Assembly (NCBI RefSeq): GCF_000423665.1
Contig: NZ_AUIK01000025.1
Location: forward strand, 63,858 to 127,857
Length of the DNA: 64,000 nucleotides
Source of the DNA: Solirubrobacter soli DSM 22325
GTDB lineage: Bacteria; Actinomycetota; Thermoleophilia; Solirubrobacterales; Solirubrobacteraceae
Reading direction: 5' to 3'
Shown in pieces: positions 800 to 6,201 of this stretch. Under the pieces are notes generated by a model. It was not told the origin of the DNA and searched no databases. It saw nothing but the letters and a program-made list of their open reading frames with translations. How positions within the stretch are numbered: position 1 is the stretch's first letter; each line of letters starts with the position of its first letter. The translations under genes and the position numbers were made by a program.

Positions 800-2239
800 A
801 TGCGCCGTCGATGGCTGCTCCTCGCGCTCGCGCTGGCCGGCTGCGGCGGCCACGACGCGGCGGGCGGGACGTCCGCGGACGACCTGAAGATCGAGATCGC
901 GCTGCGCGACGGCTCGCCCGAGATCCTGACGGCCTACAGCGAGGAACTGGCGCGCGAGAACATCCGCGTCACCCCGCGCATCAAGTGGCGTGAGCGCGAC
1001 CCGCGCCCGGAGGCGGGAACCCTCGCCGACGTGCGGTCGGGACGCCTGTCGTTCGCGTTGGTGGCCGCGCGGGCGTTCGACACGCTCGGCACGGACGCGT
1101 TCGAGCCGCTCTTGACGCCGTTCAGCGTCGACTCGCTCGCGCTGCAGCGCGCGGTGCTGGAGAGCCCGCTGGCCGGCGCGGCCCTGCGCGAGGTCGATGC
1201 GTCGGGGGTGGTCGGCGTCGCGGTGCTGCCCGGGCCCCCGCGGCACGTGCTCGGCCTCCGCCGGCCGCTGCTGACCCCGCGCGACTTCGCGGGGGCGCGC
1301 ATCGGCGTGCGCGACTCGCGGTTGTCGGCCGAGACGTTCCAACGGCTCGGGGCGACGACGGCTCCGTTCGTCGCCGACGACCGATCGGGCTTCGACGGGG
1401 TCGAGATCGATCTCACCGCGATCGAGCAGACCCGCGCCGACGAGGGCGCGGCGGTCATCGACCCGGACCTCGTGCTGTGGCCGCGGATCATGGTCCTGAT
1501 CGCCAACCGAGCCGCGTGGAACCGGCTCGCCGCCACGCAACGCTCGCGGCTGCGCGATGCCGCCCGGGCGGCGCTCCCGGCGACGCTGGCCGGCATCCGC
1601 GCGCTCGACGACGAGTCCTACGACATCATCTGCGCCCGCGGGTCGGTCACGTTCGCGCACGCCGACGTGACGGCGCTGCGGCGCGCCGTCGGGCTGCGCG
1701 AGGATCCGCGGATCGCGCGGCTGCGCGCGGACCTGCCGCCGGAGCCGCCGCACCGTGCGTGCACGCCGAGCCGGCGCGCCGTCCAATCCGGTCCGACGAA
1801 GATCGACGGGGTCTGGACGTTCACCAGCGACCGCGACGACCTCGTCCGCCACGGCGTCCGCGGCGGCGGTCTCACCCCCGAGAACTGGGGCCATCACGTG
1901 CTCGTCTTCTCGCGCGGGCGGTTCGCGATCACCCAGGAGGAGCCGGCGGCACCGGCGTGCACGTGGGTGTACGGGACGTACGCGGTCCGCGGCCGGCGGG
2001 TCGTCTGGGACGTGATCGACGGCGGCGGCTACGGACCGCAGAGCGCGACCAATCGCCCGGGCGAGCACTTCGTCTACACGTGGAGCCGTTTCAAGGACAC
2101 ACTCGAGCTCGGGCCGGTGCGCGGCGCGATCTCGGCGTTCAACTTCGACGCCAAGCCGTGGCGGCGGATCGGCGACGACCCGGCCCGCGCGCCGCTGTCG
2201 CGCACGTGCCCGCCACCCGCGCCGGCGCGTCAGTTCTGA
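800..2239 (+). CDS. DctP-like solute-binding lipoprotein with extra C-terminal domain
   Basis: A 479-residue protein starting at ATG 800. The signal peptide MRRRWLLLALALAGCGG ends in a lipobox, so it is probably a lipoprotein. Residues about 25-310 resemble the DctP family of TRAP-transporter binding proteins, including the alternating helices near NRAAWNRLAATQRSRL and DESYDIICARG. From about residue 330 there is a second domain beginning around IDGVWTFTSDRDDL, rich in Trp and beta strands, which resembles a lipocalin-like fold and is not part of ordinary DctP proteins. No TRAP permease gene is nearby. The gene converges on the response regulator with a 10-bp overlap. A ligand sensor feeding the adjacent two-component system is one possibility, which is inference from position only. 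Confidence 0.7.
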   Translation: MRRRWLLLALALAGCGGHDAAGGTSADDLKIEIALRDGSPEILTAYSEELARENIRVTPRIKWRERDPRPEAGTLADVRSGRLSFALVAARAFDTLGTDAFEPLLTPFSVDSLALQRAVLESPLAGAALREVDASGVVGVAVLPGPPRHVLGLRRPLLTPRDFAGARIGVRDSRLSAETFQRLGATTAPFVADDRSGFDGVEIDLTAIEQTRADEGAAVIDPDLVLWPRIMVLIANRAAWNRLAATQRSRLRDAARAALPATLAGIRALDDESYDIICARGSVTFAHADVTALRRAVGLREDPRIARLRADLPPEPPHRACTPSRRAVQSGPTKIDGVWTFTSDRDDLVRHGVRGGGLTPENWGHHVLVFSRGRFAITQEEPAAPACTWVYGTYAVRGRRVVWDVIDGGGYGPQSATNRPGEHFVYTWSRFKDTLELGPVRGAISAFNFDAKPWRRIGDDPARAPLSRTCPPPAPARQF

Positions 2240-2883
2240 CGCGAGCGCAGGAAGGTCAGGACCGCGAGCACACGCCGGTGCCGGTCGGGCGAGTCGCGCA
2301 ACCCGAGCTTCATGAAGATCAGCCGCACGTGGCCCTCGACCGTCTTCGGCGAGACGTAGAGGGCATCGCAGATCGCCTGGTTGGAGCGGCCCTCGGCCAT
2401 CAGCTCGAGCACCTCACGCTCTCTCGCGGTGAGCTCGTCGAGGGGATCGTGAGCGCGGCGGGCGCCGATCAGCCGCGCGACGATCGTCGGGTCGACCACG
2501 CACCCGCCGTCGTCGATCCGCCTCAGGGCATCGACGAGCACCGCGACGTCGCTCACCCGCTCCTTGAGCAGGTAGCCGGCGCGCTCCGGGGCCTCCTCGA
2601 GCAGGCGCAGCGCGTAGCGCGACTCCACCACGTGCGAGAGCACCAGGACGCCCGTGGCGGGATGCACCCGGCGGATCTCCTGCGCCGCGAGCAGCCCGTC
2701 ATCGGTGCCGTTCGGGGGCATCCGGATGTCGAGGATCGCCACGTCCGGGCGGGTCAGCGCGACCGCCCTGAGCGCTTCGGGAGCGGTCCCCGCCTTGCCC
2801 ACGACGTCGATGCCGGCCTCGCCCAGCAGGTGCGCGAGACCGTCGCGGAGCAGGCCTTCGTCGTCGGCGATGACTACCCGCAC
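2230..2883 (-). CDS. NarL/FixJ-family response regulator
   Basis: 217 residues, ATG at 2883. The receiver domain begins MRVVIADDEG with the acidic pair, has the phosphoacceptor Asp at about residue 52 (VAILDIRMPP), and carries the conserved Lys in LLKERVSDV. The C-terminal LuxR-type helix-turn-helix (LTAREREVLELMAEGRSNQA ... SPKTVEGHVRLIFMKLGL) is complete. It is therefore a DNA-binding output protein. It is the last gene of a four-gene reverse-strand operon and overlaps the upstream kinase by 10 bp, which implies translational coupling. The likely phosphodonor is one or both of the two unusual kinases encoded just upstream. Confidence 0.92.
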   Translation of the reverse strand: MRVVIADDEGLLRDGLAHLLGEAGIDVVGKAGTAPEALRAVALTRPDVAILDIRMPPNGTDDGLLAAQEIRRVHPATGVLVLSHVVESRYALRLLEEAPERAGYLLKERVSDVAVLVDALRRIDDGGCVVDPTIVARLIGARRAHDPLDELTAREREVLELMAEGRSNQAICDALYVSPKTVEGHVRLIFMKLGLRDSPDRHRRVLAVLTFLRSRQN

Positions 2884-4496
2884 GGGAGCTCCGCGGAGAT
2901 CGTGCCCGGCGCCGCCTCCAGGGCGCCGCCGAGCGCGCCGACGTGATCGTCGAGCGCGACGAGGTCGACCCGTTCGACCGCGACGCCGGTGACACGCAGC
3001 CTGAGCCTGCCGCGCTCGCGGACGGCGTGCACCGCGGCGCCCGCGGGCTCCGCGTGGCGGATCGACTCGGTGAGCACGCGATACGCCGTCGTCTCGATCT
3101 CCGGGGGGAACCGGCCCTCCGGCAGCGGCCCGTCGATCCGCACGTCGGCGGCCTCGGCGAACGCCTCAACGGCGCGCGCGAGGCCCTCGTCGGCCAGGAC
3201 CGGCGGCACCAGGCCGCCGGCGATGTCCCGGAGCGCCGCCAACGCGGCCCGCACCTGTCCCTGCGCGGCGAGGAGCGCGCCGGCGTCGCGTGACCCGCCG
3301 GCCGTCCGCTCCGCCCGCAGCCGAGCGACCTCCAGCGTGACCGCAAGCGTCGCCAGGCGCTGCTGGGCGCCGTCATGGAGGTCGCGCTCGAGCCGGCGGC
3401 GCTCGGCGTCGGAGGCCGCCACGATCCGGGCACGGATCGCGCGCAGCTGCGCCGCTCGCACGACCTGTTCCGCGCGCAGGCGCTCGTTGTGCAGCGGAAG
3501 GCGCGCCGCGGCGGCGATCGCCGCGGCGAGCCCGGCGTCCACGGCTCCAGGAGCGTGGGCGAGCTCCGCCCGGCCCTCGGGCAGCGGCGTCAGCTCCCGC
3601 CCCGCACCCGGAGCGAGCGCGCGGCCGTTCGCGTCGTAGAGCCGCCCGTCGGAAAGCCGATAGCCGAGCTCGAGCTCCGGGTCGCCGAGCGCGCCGGCGA
3701 TCGCCTCGCCCAGGCCGCGCGGCGCCGGGTGCGCTTCGAGCTCGACGATCAGCCGCGCGAGCCGCGCCCGGGCCGCGCGGCGCCGGAGCGGTTCGCGGGC
3801 GGTGCCCGCCGCGACCGCCAGCAACGCGAGTCCCTGCAAGGCCCACAGGCCGCGGTCGAGCGGGTCCGTCGAGACGTAGCCGCGCGCAAGGCCGTGAGCG
3901 TACTGGGCGGCGACCAATGCGAGGTAGAGCGCGACCGCGGGCGCCCGACGCAGGGTGGCGAGCGCGACCGCGACCGCCCCGGCCAAGCCCAGCCACACGC
4001 CCGCGCGCTGCAGCGCGTCGTACGCGGTGCCGTCACCGTGGACGAGCAGCAGGTTCGCGGGGCACGCCTCGCAGGCGGCCGGATCGAAGAGGACCGCGGA
4101 CAGGGGCCCGAGCACGAGCGCCGAAGGGACGAGCAGCGGCCACGCCCGGGTCGGCGCCGCCCAGGCCACCGCCACCGGCGTCGCCGCCCCGAGGACGAGA
4201 CCGGCGGTGAACGCCACGCTCCCGGGCGCGGCCGGGCCGGCCAGCTGCGCGAGCGGCCACACGACCGCCACCGATAGCCAGCGCGGCTCCCGGATCGCCG
4301 CCAGGGCGAGCGCGACGGGAACGAGCACGAGCAGCGCGACCATCCACGGCCGCGGACCCGCCAGCGTCAGGTCGGCGTCGCGGGTGGACGCCGCGAGCGC
4401 GCCGGCGAGCGCCAGGGCGGCCAGCCCGAGCAGTCCTGCCCGGCCGTCCGCCGCCGCGGCGGGCCGCGCGCCCGCGACCTGCGAGGGCGCGGTCAT
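2874..4496 (-). CDS. HisKA_3-type histidine kinase with intact His but degenerate ATP-binding domain
   Basis: 540 residues, ATG at 4496. Residues about 20-235 contain roughly eight hydrophobic segments, then a coiled region and the dimerisation segment AERRRLERDLHDGAQQRLAT with the phosphoacceptor His at about residue 374. The catalytic domain is abnormal. Where relatives read SEALxNVxKHA, this protein reads TESIRHA, so the N-box Asn is missing through a short deletion. The DxGxG box is replaced by TGVAVE, and the ATP-lid glycine loop is absent before HVGALGGALEAAPG. The reading frame and codon use are normal, so it is not an obvious pseudogene. It overlaps the neighbouring kinase gene by 4 bp (ATGA). 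I infer it can receive phosphate but cannot phosphorylate itself. Confidence 0.88.
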   Translation of the reverse strand: MTAPSQVAGARPAAAADGRAGLLGLAALALAGALAASTRDADLTLAGPRPWMVALLVLVPVALALAAIREPRWLSVAVVWPLAQLAGPAAPGSVAFTAGLVLGAATPVAVAWAAPTRAWPLLVPSALVLGPLSAVLFDPAACEACPANLLLVHGDGTAYDALQRAGVWLGLAGAVAVALATLRRAPAVALYLALVAAQYAHGLARGYVSTDPLDRGLWALQGLALLAVAAGTAREPLRRRAARARLARLIVELEAHPAPRGLGEAIAGALGDPELELGYRLSDGRLYDANGRALAPGAGRELTPLPEGRAELAHAPGAVDAGLAAAIAAAARLPLHNERLRAEQVVRAAQLRAIRARIVAASDAERRRLERDLHDGAQQRLATLAVTLEVARLRAERTAGGSRDAGALLAAQGQVRAALAALRDIAGGLVPPVLADEGLARAVEAFAEAADVRIDGPLPEGRFPPEIETTAYRVLTESIRHAEPAGAAVHAVRERGRLRLRVTGVAVERVDLVALDDHVGALGGALEAAPGTISAELPCG

Positions 4497-5863
4497 GCCG
4501 GGACCACCGCCGTCAGCGTCGTACCGGCTCCTTCCGCACTGGTGACGGAGAACGTGCCGCCCTGGGCGTGGACGCGGTCGTGCAGGCCGCGGAGGCCGTG
4601 GCCCTGGGCGACGTCGGCGCCGCCGCGGCCGTCGTCGGTGACGCGGGCCTCGAGGCCGCCGTCGCGCTCGGCGATCTCGACCTCGACCCTGGTCGCCCCC
4701 GCGTGCTTGACGACGTTGGCGAGCGCCTCCGAGCAGACGAAGTAGACGGTGGTCTCGACCAGCTCGGAGAAGCGCCGGGTGGGGACGACGAGTCCGACGG
4801 GCACCGAGGAGTGCGCCACGAGCTCGCCGAGCGCGGCCGCGAGCCCGCCGGACGCGAGGGCCCGCGGGCGCAGGCCCGCGGCGAACGCGCGCAACTCGTC
4901 CCCCGCCGCCGCGGTCTCCCGCGCCAGCGCCGGGTCGACCACCGCGAGCGTCGCCGCGGCGGTGACCAGCCGTGCGTGCGCCTCCTCGGAGACCTCACGC
5001 GCCAGCCTCCGGCGCTCGGTGTCGGCGGCGCTGACGAGCCGGCGGGCGGACGCCTCGAGCTCCACCACCTGGGCGGCCGCCTCGTCCTGCAACGCCGCGT
5101 TGCGCAGCGCGATGCGGGCGGCGGCGACCGTCGCCTCCGCGACCGCGGAGTCCGCGAGCGCCTCCGGCGCGTGGAGCAGCACGACGTCGTCCCCGACCGC
5201 GGTCGCGACTCGCCTCCCGGGGACGACCCGCCCTCCCGCGCGATCGACGAAGCCGTCGCCGTCGCGCCACGCCAGGGCGAGCGTCGGGTCACCGACGGCT
5301 CGGCCCAGCTCGCGGCGGCCGAGGCTCTCGAGCAGCGCCACTGTGATCGATTGCGTCCAGCGGCCGAGCCAGAGCTCGCCGGCCAGGTAGGCGGCGCAGA
5401 GGACGATCGCGAGCTCGTAGCCCGCGAGCGCGGCCGCCGGGTCCGCGCCGGCGGCACGGGCGATGGTCGCCCCGGCGAGCGCGAGCGCCAGCAACGCCGC
5501 GCCCACCAGCGCGGCCCGCGCCGCACGGCGCTCGATCCCCGTGGCGACCCGCCGGCGCGCGACCGCGGCCGCCACGACGGCGGCCGCCAAGGCGACCGTG
5601 ACCGCGCCCGCCGCGCCGACCGGCTCGATCAGGGCGGCCGCGTAGCCGCACGCCACGAGCCACGACCAACGCCGCGCGCGCCACGCCGGGTACGCCAGGA
5701 CGAGCTGGATGAGCGGCCCGCGGTGCAGGAAGACGAACACGTCGACCGCGCACCCGAGCAGCCACGCCCCGCCCGCGGCCGCCAGCAGCGTCGCGGTCGG
5801 GCGCCCGCGCCCAACGGCGACGGCCGCGCAGGCGAGCAGGGCGATGCCGGTCGCGACGTCCAT
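4493..5863 (-). CDS. HisKA_3-type histidine kinase with intact ATPase but no phosphoacceptor His
   Basis: 456 residues, start codon at 5863 overlapping the receiver gene's stop. The N-terminal about 165 residues contain several membrane segments, followed by a GAF-like linker. The catalytic domain is complete: the N-box SEALANVVKHA (Asn about 383), DDGRGG (about 410) and the lid GHGLRGL (about 421). The dimerisation helix reads TERRRLAREVSEEAHARL; aligned with the usual ERRRxxRDLHDGxQ, the phosphoacceptor His is Ser (about residue 292). A His occurs four residues later and could in principle substitute. The pattern is the mirror image of the next gene, suggesting the pair works as a heterodimer in which this subunit phosphorylates the other. 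Confidence 0.88.
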   Translation of the reverse strand: MDVATGIALLACAAVAVGRGRPTATLLAAAGGAWLLGCAVDVFVFLHRGPLIQLVLAYPAWRARRWSWLVACGYAAALIEPVGAAGAVTVALAAAVVAAAVARRRVATGIERRAARAALVGAALLALALAGATIARAAGADPAAALAGYELAIVLCAAYLAGELWLGRWTQSITVALLESLGRRELGRAVGDPTLALAWRDGDGFVDRAGGRVVPGRRVATAVGDDVVLLHAPEALADSAVAEATVAAARIALRNAALQDEAAAQVVELEASARRLVSAADTERRRLAREVSEEAHARLVTAAATLAVVDPALARETAAAGDELRAFAAGLRPRALASGGLAAALGELVAHSSVPVGLVVPTRRFSELVETTVYFVCSEALANVVKHAGATRVEVEIAERDGGLEARVTDDGRGGADVAQGHGLRGLHDRVHAQGGTFSVTSAEGAGTTLTAVVPA

Positions 5864-6201
5864 CAGCCGAGCAACGCGACGAGCGCCGGCCCGGTGAGCT
5901 CGCCCTTGGGGATGAATCCACGCGCGGGCGTGTCCTGGAGGCGACGTCCGGGCGCCCGGCCCGAGACGAGGACGACGGCGCCCGGGTACCCGCTGTCCGC
6001 GAGCCGCGCGGCGACCTCGAAGCCGTCGATTCCGGGCAGCTGGACGTCGAGCAGGATCGCGTCCGGCGTCAGCTGACCCGCCGCGCGCAGCGCGGTCTCG
6101 CCGTCCGCCGCCTCACCGACGACGTCGTAGCCCTCGGCGGTCAGCAGCGCGCGGGCGGCGGCTCGGAACGGCGCGTGGTCGTCGACGATCAGGACGCGCA
6201 T
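5863..6201 (-). CDS. Single-domain response regulator (receiver only)
   Basis: About 112 residues from ATG at 6201 (MRVLIVDDHAPFRAAARALL); a TTG start nine codons upstream is possible but would add an atypical leader. It has the acidic pair, phosphoacceptor Asp at about residue 52 (AILLDVQLPG), Ser in VLVSGRAP and the conserved Lys in GFIPKGEL. There is no output domain. It is the first gene of the four-gene operon and overlaps the next kinase by one base (TGATG). Single receivers often act as phosphate sinks, relay intermediates or allosteric partners of kinases; which applies here is not visible. Confidence 0.88.
   Translation of the reverse strand: MRVLIVDDHAPFRAAARALLTAEGYDVVGEAADGETALRAAGQLTPDAILLDVQLPGIDGFEVAARLADSGYPGAVVLVSGRAPGRRLQDTPARGFIPKGELTGPALVALLG

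Follow-up and report, generated by a model that had tools for sequence, protein, structure and literature searches.

Complementary losses of catalytic residues in two adjacent membrane kinases suggest a split HisKA_3-type kinase linked to a DctP-type binding protein

We analysed a 64,000-nt stretch of NZ_AUIK01000025.1 from Solirubrobacter soli DSM 22325 (hereafter the window, whose positions serve as coordinates throughout). The source genome, coded G000, is a 9.3 Mb draft assembly, 95.44% complete and with 8.08% contamination. Four genes on the minus strand encode, in this order, a receiver-only protein, two membrane kinases (here called KinA and KinB), and a NarL-type response regulator; the gene of a DctP-type binding protein, on the plus strand, faces them. 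According to Pfam, alignments and scans of the catalytic boxes, KinA (456 residues, 4493-5863, minus strand) has an intact ATPase domain and a degenerate acceptor helix, and KinB (540 residues, 2874-4496, minus strand) an intact acceptor helix and a degenerate ATPase domain. Successive genes overlap by 1 base (receiver-only/kinA, TGATG), 4 bases (kinA/kinB, ATGA at 4493-4496) and 10 bases (kinB/regulator), which suggests that they form one operon. The initial annotation of this DNA had correctly given the coordinates and lengths of the kinases and their 4-base overlap. It had also rightly placed a receiver-only protein and a NarL regulator on either side of the pair; both have Pfam matches and keep the receiver Asp and Lys.

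The two kinases retain opposite halves of the catalytic machinery. Pfam matched HATPase_c in KinA, with no HisKA_3 match at E ≤ 1 (there was also a sub-cut-off HATPase_c_2 and one chance match), and HisKA_3 in KinB (E 6.4e-10), with no HATPase_c. KinA is assigned to the HisKA_3 class by alignment and not by Pfam. Alignment with related kinases bears out what had been claimed for the two proteins: Ser292 of KinA (EVSEEA; codon 4988-4990, minus strand) stands in the column of the phosphoacceptor His of the DHp domain, together with a complete ATP-binding domain, and KinB has a perfect DLHDG helix and has lost the N-box Asn, the DxGxG box and the lid. What is left of the ATP-binding domain of KinB is vestigial (residues 432-540; 2877-3203, minus strand). 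Neither window protein has the acceptor His and the N and G1 boxes in one chain; the ATP-binding residues lie on KinA and the acceptor His on KinB, as in a split kinase.

In separate alignments of the two families, the ATPase residues of KinA were invariant in 9/9 rows, i.e., Asn383 of the N box (codon 4715-4717, minus strand) and D410, D411, G412, G414 and G415 of the G1 box (DDGRGG, residues 410-415; 4619-4636, minus strand). The DLHDGAQQRL of KinB, which carries the HDxxxQ motif and the presumed acceptor His374 (codon 3375-3377, minus strand), was also invariant in 9/9 rows. Hence, opposite halves of the two proteins are under selection. In HisKA_3 kinases the catalytic dyad is formed by the residue that follows the His, and the Gln of HDxxxQ serves as phosphatase residue (PMC6798134). 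KinB keeps the His, the dyad residue and the phosphatase Gln. The structure model of KinB, of moderate confidence (mean pLDDT 73, pTM 0.40), has long acceptor helices, and its catalytic domain is reduced. Its PDB matches, at low TM-scores, were first a bacteriophytochrome and then DesK, with the VraS catalytic domain among them. Between model helices 116-136 and 156-181 lies the loop FDPAACEACPAN (4053-4085, minus strand), in which D138, P139 and C145 are invariant in 9/9 rows. We infer that this conserved D-P...C loop is probably extracytoplasmic and a candidate contact for the binding protein.

Genome scans, profile searches and fetched regions provided 16 related loci in at least five actinobacterial orders. 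They comprise the window, L141 and L142 (all in G000), L143 and L148 (from the window's own family), L076 (Solirubrobacterales), L061 (labelled Streptomyces olivochromogenes), L062 (Humibacillus), L067 (Micromonospora), L116 (Acrocarpospora), and six loci from other families of the phylum (L209, L210, L211, L212, L213 and L215). Five of these loci, L061, L062, L067, L076 and L116, fall in five orders. Both kinases are open frames at 11 loci (the window, L141, L142, L061, L062, L076, L116, L143, L209, L210 and L211), and L067 and L212 carry both with one of the two damaged in each.

We scanned the boxes of these proteins by joining aligned pieces; the KinB motifs of L214, a partial copy, and of L215 were taken from scans without a spurious upstream piece. 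HDxxxQ was present in all 14 KinB rows and the N-box Asn in none; in L212 the N-box region lies on a separate piece, and the Asn is not there either. The division of labour that the initial annotation had proposed to look for in homologous pairs was therefore recovered, and no pair with intact boxes in both proteins was found. The KinA scan had 15 rows, of which L067 was set aside for its unknown bases. The N-box Asn and the G1 box occur in 14/14 scorable KinA. The acceptor His is replaced in 11 of them by eight different residues (S, R, E, A, G, R, Q, N, R, Q, Y), the E of L142 being less sure since its column falls in a gapped stretch. HDxxxQ, read here as a motif and not as an activity, is absent from all 14, because the Gln is missing from the three KinA with a His, as is the Asp in L212. 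No scorable KinA has His, dyad residue and phosphatase Gln together.

A His lies four residues after Ser292, and KinA might autophosphorylate on such another His. We rejected His296 as a substitute acceptor for want of conservation: among the 14 scorable KinA, that of the window is the only one with a His at this position. Autophosphorylation of KinA on another His is thus very improbable.

To place these counts, 342 kinase frames were scanned. After dropping 50 that were short or cut by locus ends and merging repeats, 224 distinct kinases remained: 27 from the module, four from the Acidimicrobiales pairs described below, and 193 others. His, N-box Asn and G1 box were all present in 182 of the 193 others; the exceptions lacked the His (five), the G1 box (four) or the N-box Asn (two, one of them the broken L067 kinA piece). 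The division recurs at related loci, yet these 182 kinases have every box, and it is therefore more than chance. Every box was also present in 10/10 kinases (from 9 genomes) that the KinA profile detected within the class at E 5e-122 to 1e-110.

That the pattern might be a generic trait of tandem HisKA_3 kinases was rejected. In 20 fetched regions of other genomes, with kinases singly or in tandem, 54 of the 61 kinase frames have every box, the rest being four without the His (in L237, L248, L249 and L252) and three pieces; no complete frame has the KinB pattern. L237-L256 are tandem HisKA_3-type arrays in other actinobacterial genomes, often with 4-base overlaps and mostly intact, and their occasional members without the acceptor His read DIREGPQ, RIEDGAR and QLGSGAQ. 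A wide presence of the module in the family of G063 was also rejected, with 0 of 249 at E ≤ 1e-110, an empty result of little weight. The profile searches scored the best few candidates per genome (3 or 4 in 396 sampled genomes of the phylum, 5 in the class, 6 in the family of G063), and modules may therefore have been missed.

As a pattern of sequence evolution, the complementary loss of kinase functions is well supported. Some draft copies are damaged, e.g., kinB of L212 and kinA of L067 with its unknown bases, as they would be if both genes were degenerating paralogues nearing loss. Such decay is hardly credible. The opposite halves are strictly conserved at mean pairwise identities of 42% (KinA) and 37% (KinB), the window frames are open, and the pattern is repeated in several orders; we reject decay because of this conservation and of the controls.

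The genes on either side of the kinases are also conserved. The NarL-type regulator (2230-2883, minus strand, GTG start) consists of a receiver and a GerE domain in Pfam. Such a regulator follows kinB at 13/13 loci covering that stretch, with the receiver Asp and Lys in 13/13 rows. The receiver-only protein (112 residues; 5863-6201, minus strand; Pfam Response_reg E 1.4e-19) precedes kinA at 12 of the 16 loci (it was not seen in L142, L061, L116 and L215) and keeps Asp and Lys in 12/12.

The fifth gene of the module had not been connected with the kinases in the initial annotation. It encodes a DctP-type solute-binding lipoprotein of 479 residues with an added C-terminal beta-strand domain (800-2239, plus strand; Pfam DctP E 8.2e-13), and is the probable receptor of the module. 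The structure model resembles binding proteins of tripartite ATP-independent periplasmic (TRAP) transporters over about 300 residues (TMt 0.67-0.78 among the 50 Foldseek matches listed), with extra strands at residues 337-458. For the beta domain no match was found in Pfam or among the 50 Foldseek matches listed, which cover the DctP part. A binding-protein gene is present at 15 of the 16 loci, the exception, L213, being at a contig end; in L209, L210, L212, L141 and L142 the gene between kinA and kinB is a homologue of the window lipoprotein. The binding-protein profile matched 34 frames among 236 loci, and every such locus overlaps a module. In the 396-genome sample, matches running fully to the C-terminus were found in five genomes (G000, G082, G144, G301 and G331), exactly those in which KinB was recognised. 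Four of the five have a full-length KinA match, and G301 has none at E ≤ 1e-110.

Pfam and fold both identify the DctP part of a TRAP transporter. PF03480 (DctP) finds three genes in G000, one in each of its three modules, and DctM (PF06808) has no match in this draft genome, the control search finding DctM in 7/14 genomes. Some genomes have several modules: three paralogous ones in G000 (window, L141 and L142) and two each in G144 and G082. In L142 (5665-10302) kinA and the binding-protein gene are turned against kinB, and the fetched stretch has no receiver-only gene. Several DctP-type genes stand in a row beside KinB in G301 (L215:6182-11761), and three on contig C114 of G331.

The best explanation, and in our view a fairly probable one, is a split heterodimeric HisKA_3 membrane kinase with a binding-protein receptor. 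The exported lipoprotein would bind a small ligand and dock on the membrane sensor of KinA, of KinB or of both. The two kinases would pair through their acceptor-helix bundles, KinA bringing ATP and the catalytic domain to phosphorylate His374 of KinB, which would pass the phosphate to the NarL regulator. Through HDxxxQ, KinB may also act as a phosphatase, in which case free or homodimeric KinB would turn the regulator off. The receiver-only protein may be a second phosphate acceptor, i.e., a sink or a brake. The phosphotransfer complex of DesK is strongly asymmetric, with one kinase dimer per regulator (PMC5231405), and an obligate heterodimer would fix such an asymmetry genetically. From this asymmetry, the HDxxxQ of KinB and the correlated distances reported below, we infer trans-phosphorylation from KinA to KinB, transfer to the NarL regulator and a phosphatase role of KinB. 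The obligate heterodimer proposed in the initial annotation is thus supported by the comparisons of sequences; its AND-type sensing of two signals is plausible. The binding protein is a further likely sensing part.

KinB keeps the entire HDxxxQ motif, and might serve solely to dephosphorylate the NarL regulator, the phosphate coming from another kinase or from acetyl phosphate and the ATP of KinA merely switching the conformation of KinB. DesK-type kinases do switch between kinase and phosphatase states (PMC6798134). We consider this role unlikely, because a pure phosphatase would be freer to lose the His that is invariant in 14/14 KinB, and because the ATPase boxes of KinA would then persist for a role without phosphotransfer.

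The distance matrices of KinA and KinB correlate across 11 loci (r 0.91, with 0/10000 permutations as high), and shared descent contributes to the correlation. This co-divergence, and the fact that the two kinases remain in one module, speak against a wider network in which some other, complete kinase phosphorylates His374 and KinA is a pseudokinase modulator. KinA moreover retains its N and G1 boxes despite the loss of the acceptor motif. Potential partners do exist, with at least 35 KinB matches in G000 (the best 35 of 121 candidates were scored), and the native paralogues ChrS and HrrS of Corynebacterium heterodimerise (PMC9491836). On balance a wider network seems improbable.

Several observations weigh against a split heterodimer. 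Copies are damaged in L067 (kinA, unknown bases) and L212 (kinB, broken frame), and the last part of the L143 kinA is unlike the others. On draft contigs, L148 and L213 show KinA without KinB, and L215 KinB without KinA; the genomes of L213 and L215 are congeneric, and a contig end in the former carries a partial KinB (L214). Part of the G1 box is kept in four of the 14 KinB (D-x-G in L076, L211 and L215, the full DxGxG in L210) and the His in three of the 14 KinA (L076, L211 and L212). The sample is small and its loci were selected for their likeness to the two window kinases; the counts therefore apply to this family and not to kinases in general. The support comes from the comparison of sequences. 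Finally, a degenerate kinase can act as a regulator and not as an acceptor, as in the case of the ChrS pseudokinase, whose His was dispensable (PMC9491836).

The intermediate copies bear on how the split arose. In the tree, kinA forms a clade (13 rows, without L116) with support 94/96, and kinB one group with 62/99; one kinA row has residues in only 13% of its columns, and the bootstrap values had yet to stabilise. The tree thus makes a common origin of all KinB likely, without firm support. By our count, it requires about six separate losses of the KinA His if none was reversed, several of its nodes being weak. Since three KinA still have the His and no KinB has the N-box Asn, the ATPase of KinB probably went first, followed by repeated losses of the acceptor in KinA.

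A second kind of pair was found in Acidimicrobiales (L087:3330-8968 and L110:3432-7858), with adjacent kinases, a 4-base overlap and different sensors. One kinase has DLDSGPQ and an intact ATPase, and the other DLHDGAQ and a broken ATPase, the N box of the acceptor protein being ambiguous in L110. These four proteins form a group apart (100/100) within which like halves pair, and the tree suggests that their split is probably independent of that of the DctP-type module. The binding-protein profile found no DctP gene in the fetched stretches of L087 and L110.

Rv0600c/Rv0601c of Mycobacterium tuberculosis is a split kinase of the HisKA class, its gene being cut between domains. As in the present module, two kinase genes cooperate there with one regulator, TcrA (PMC9274095). 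CheA3/CheA4 of Rhodobacter sphaeroides divide ATP binding and the acceptor function between two proteins. Neither autophosphorylates by itself, and the one with the acceptor is also the phosphatase (PMC3591291). The likeness to KinA, with its ATP-binding residues, and KinB, with its acceptor His, is known here from sequence. CheA3/CheA4 differ in belonging to the chemotaxis class and to a cytoplasmic cluster and in missing whole domains (P1 in one, P3/P4 in the other), whereas KinA and KinB are full-length membrane kinases of HisKA_3 type with degenerate remnants. In SMART, 1556 of 42417 HisKA proteins have no HATPase domain, a count of missing domains among HisKA proteins only (PMC3591291). 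Hik36-Hik43 of Synechocystis also make one histidine kinase, acting on a response regulator, from two genes; unlike KinA/KinB, they are the two parts of a divided cheA homologue, one of which carries the histidine phosphotransfer (HPt) domain, and not a pair of paralogous sensor kinases (PMC7656254).

Sensor kinases generally act as homodimers (PMC9491836). The actinobacterial pair ChrS/HrrS of Corynebacterium glutamicum resembles KinA/KinB in that the native forms heterodimerise, in two-hybrid tests, and one partner can lack the ATPase domain. It differs in that the ATPase-less ChrS came from laboratory evolution and HrrS is complete. That ChrS acted through HrrS, its His not being needed, and the truncated protein did not score in the two-hybrid test (PMC9491836).

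NarX is a HisKA_3 kinase of the DesK/VraS kind. DesK, VraS and NarX, unlike KinA/KinB, form homodimers, each chain of which contains both halves. DesK and VraS share with our pair the kind of acceptor and catalytic fold, the HDxxxQ motif and a NarL-type regulator (PMC6798134). In DctB-DctS of Bacillus subtilis, a sensor kinase is assisted by an accessory co-receptor for C4-dicarboxylates (PMC6978683). A single kinase and the transporter DctA take part in that system; our module has a split kinase, in a genome where DctM was not found.

In the open-access literature we found neither a split HisKA_3 pair whose complementary losses are conserved nor such an association with DctP, an absence that is weak evidence. 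The view of the initial annotation that such a split is undescribed for NarL-type actinobacterial kinases holds, within that literature, for the HisKA_3, membrane, binding-protein-linked form; split kinases in general have been published (PMC3591291). What is new is therefore the class of kinase, the presence of two complete membrane sensors and the association with a binding protein.

More broadly, we see an even chance that these modules exemplify a class of actinobacterial receptors in which two membrane half-kinases form an obligate heterodimer gated by a former transport binding protein (DctP with a beta domain). The two subunits would sense separate inputs, each with its own sensor; kinase activity would be confined to the pair, and phosphatase activity to one subunit. 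Complementary loss would have arisen at least twice in HisKA_3 (DctP-type modules and Acidimicrobiales pairs), so that degeneration of duplicated sensor kinases would be a repeatable route. The intermediates, i.e., KinA with or without the His beside KinB that all lack the N-box Asn, make this route testable. That a genome carries the DctP protein while DctM is not detectable in it suggests that a pure receptor role is possible for binding proteins which annotations class as transporter components. If the explanation is true, a natural, conserved and obligate HisKA_3 heterodimer would show directly which subunit phosphorylates which and how asymmetry is used, and whether parting kinase from phosphatase gives a switch-like output, as modelled for CheA3/CheA4.

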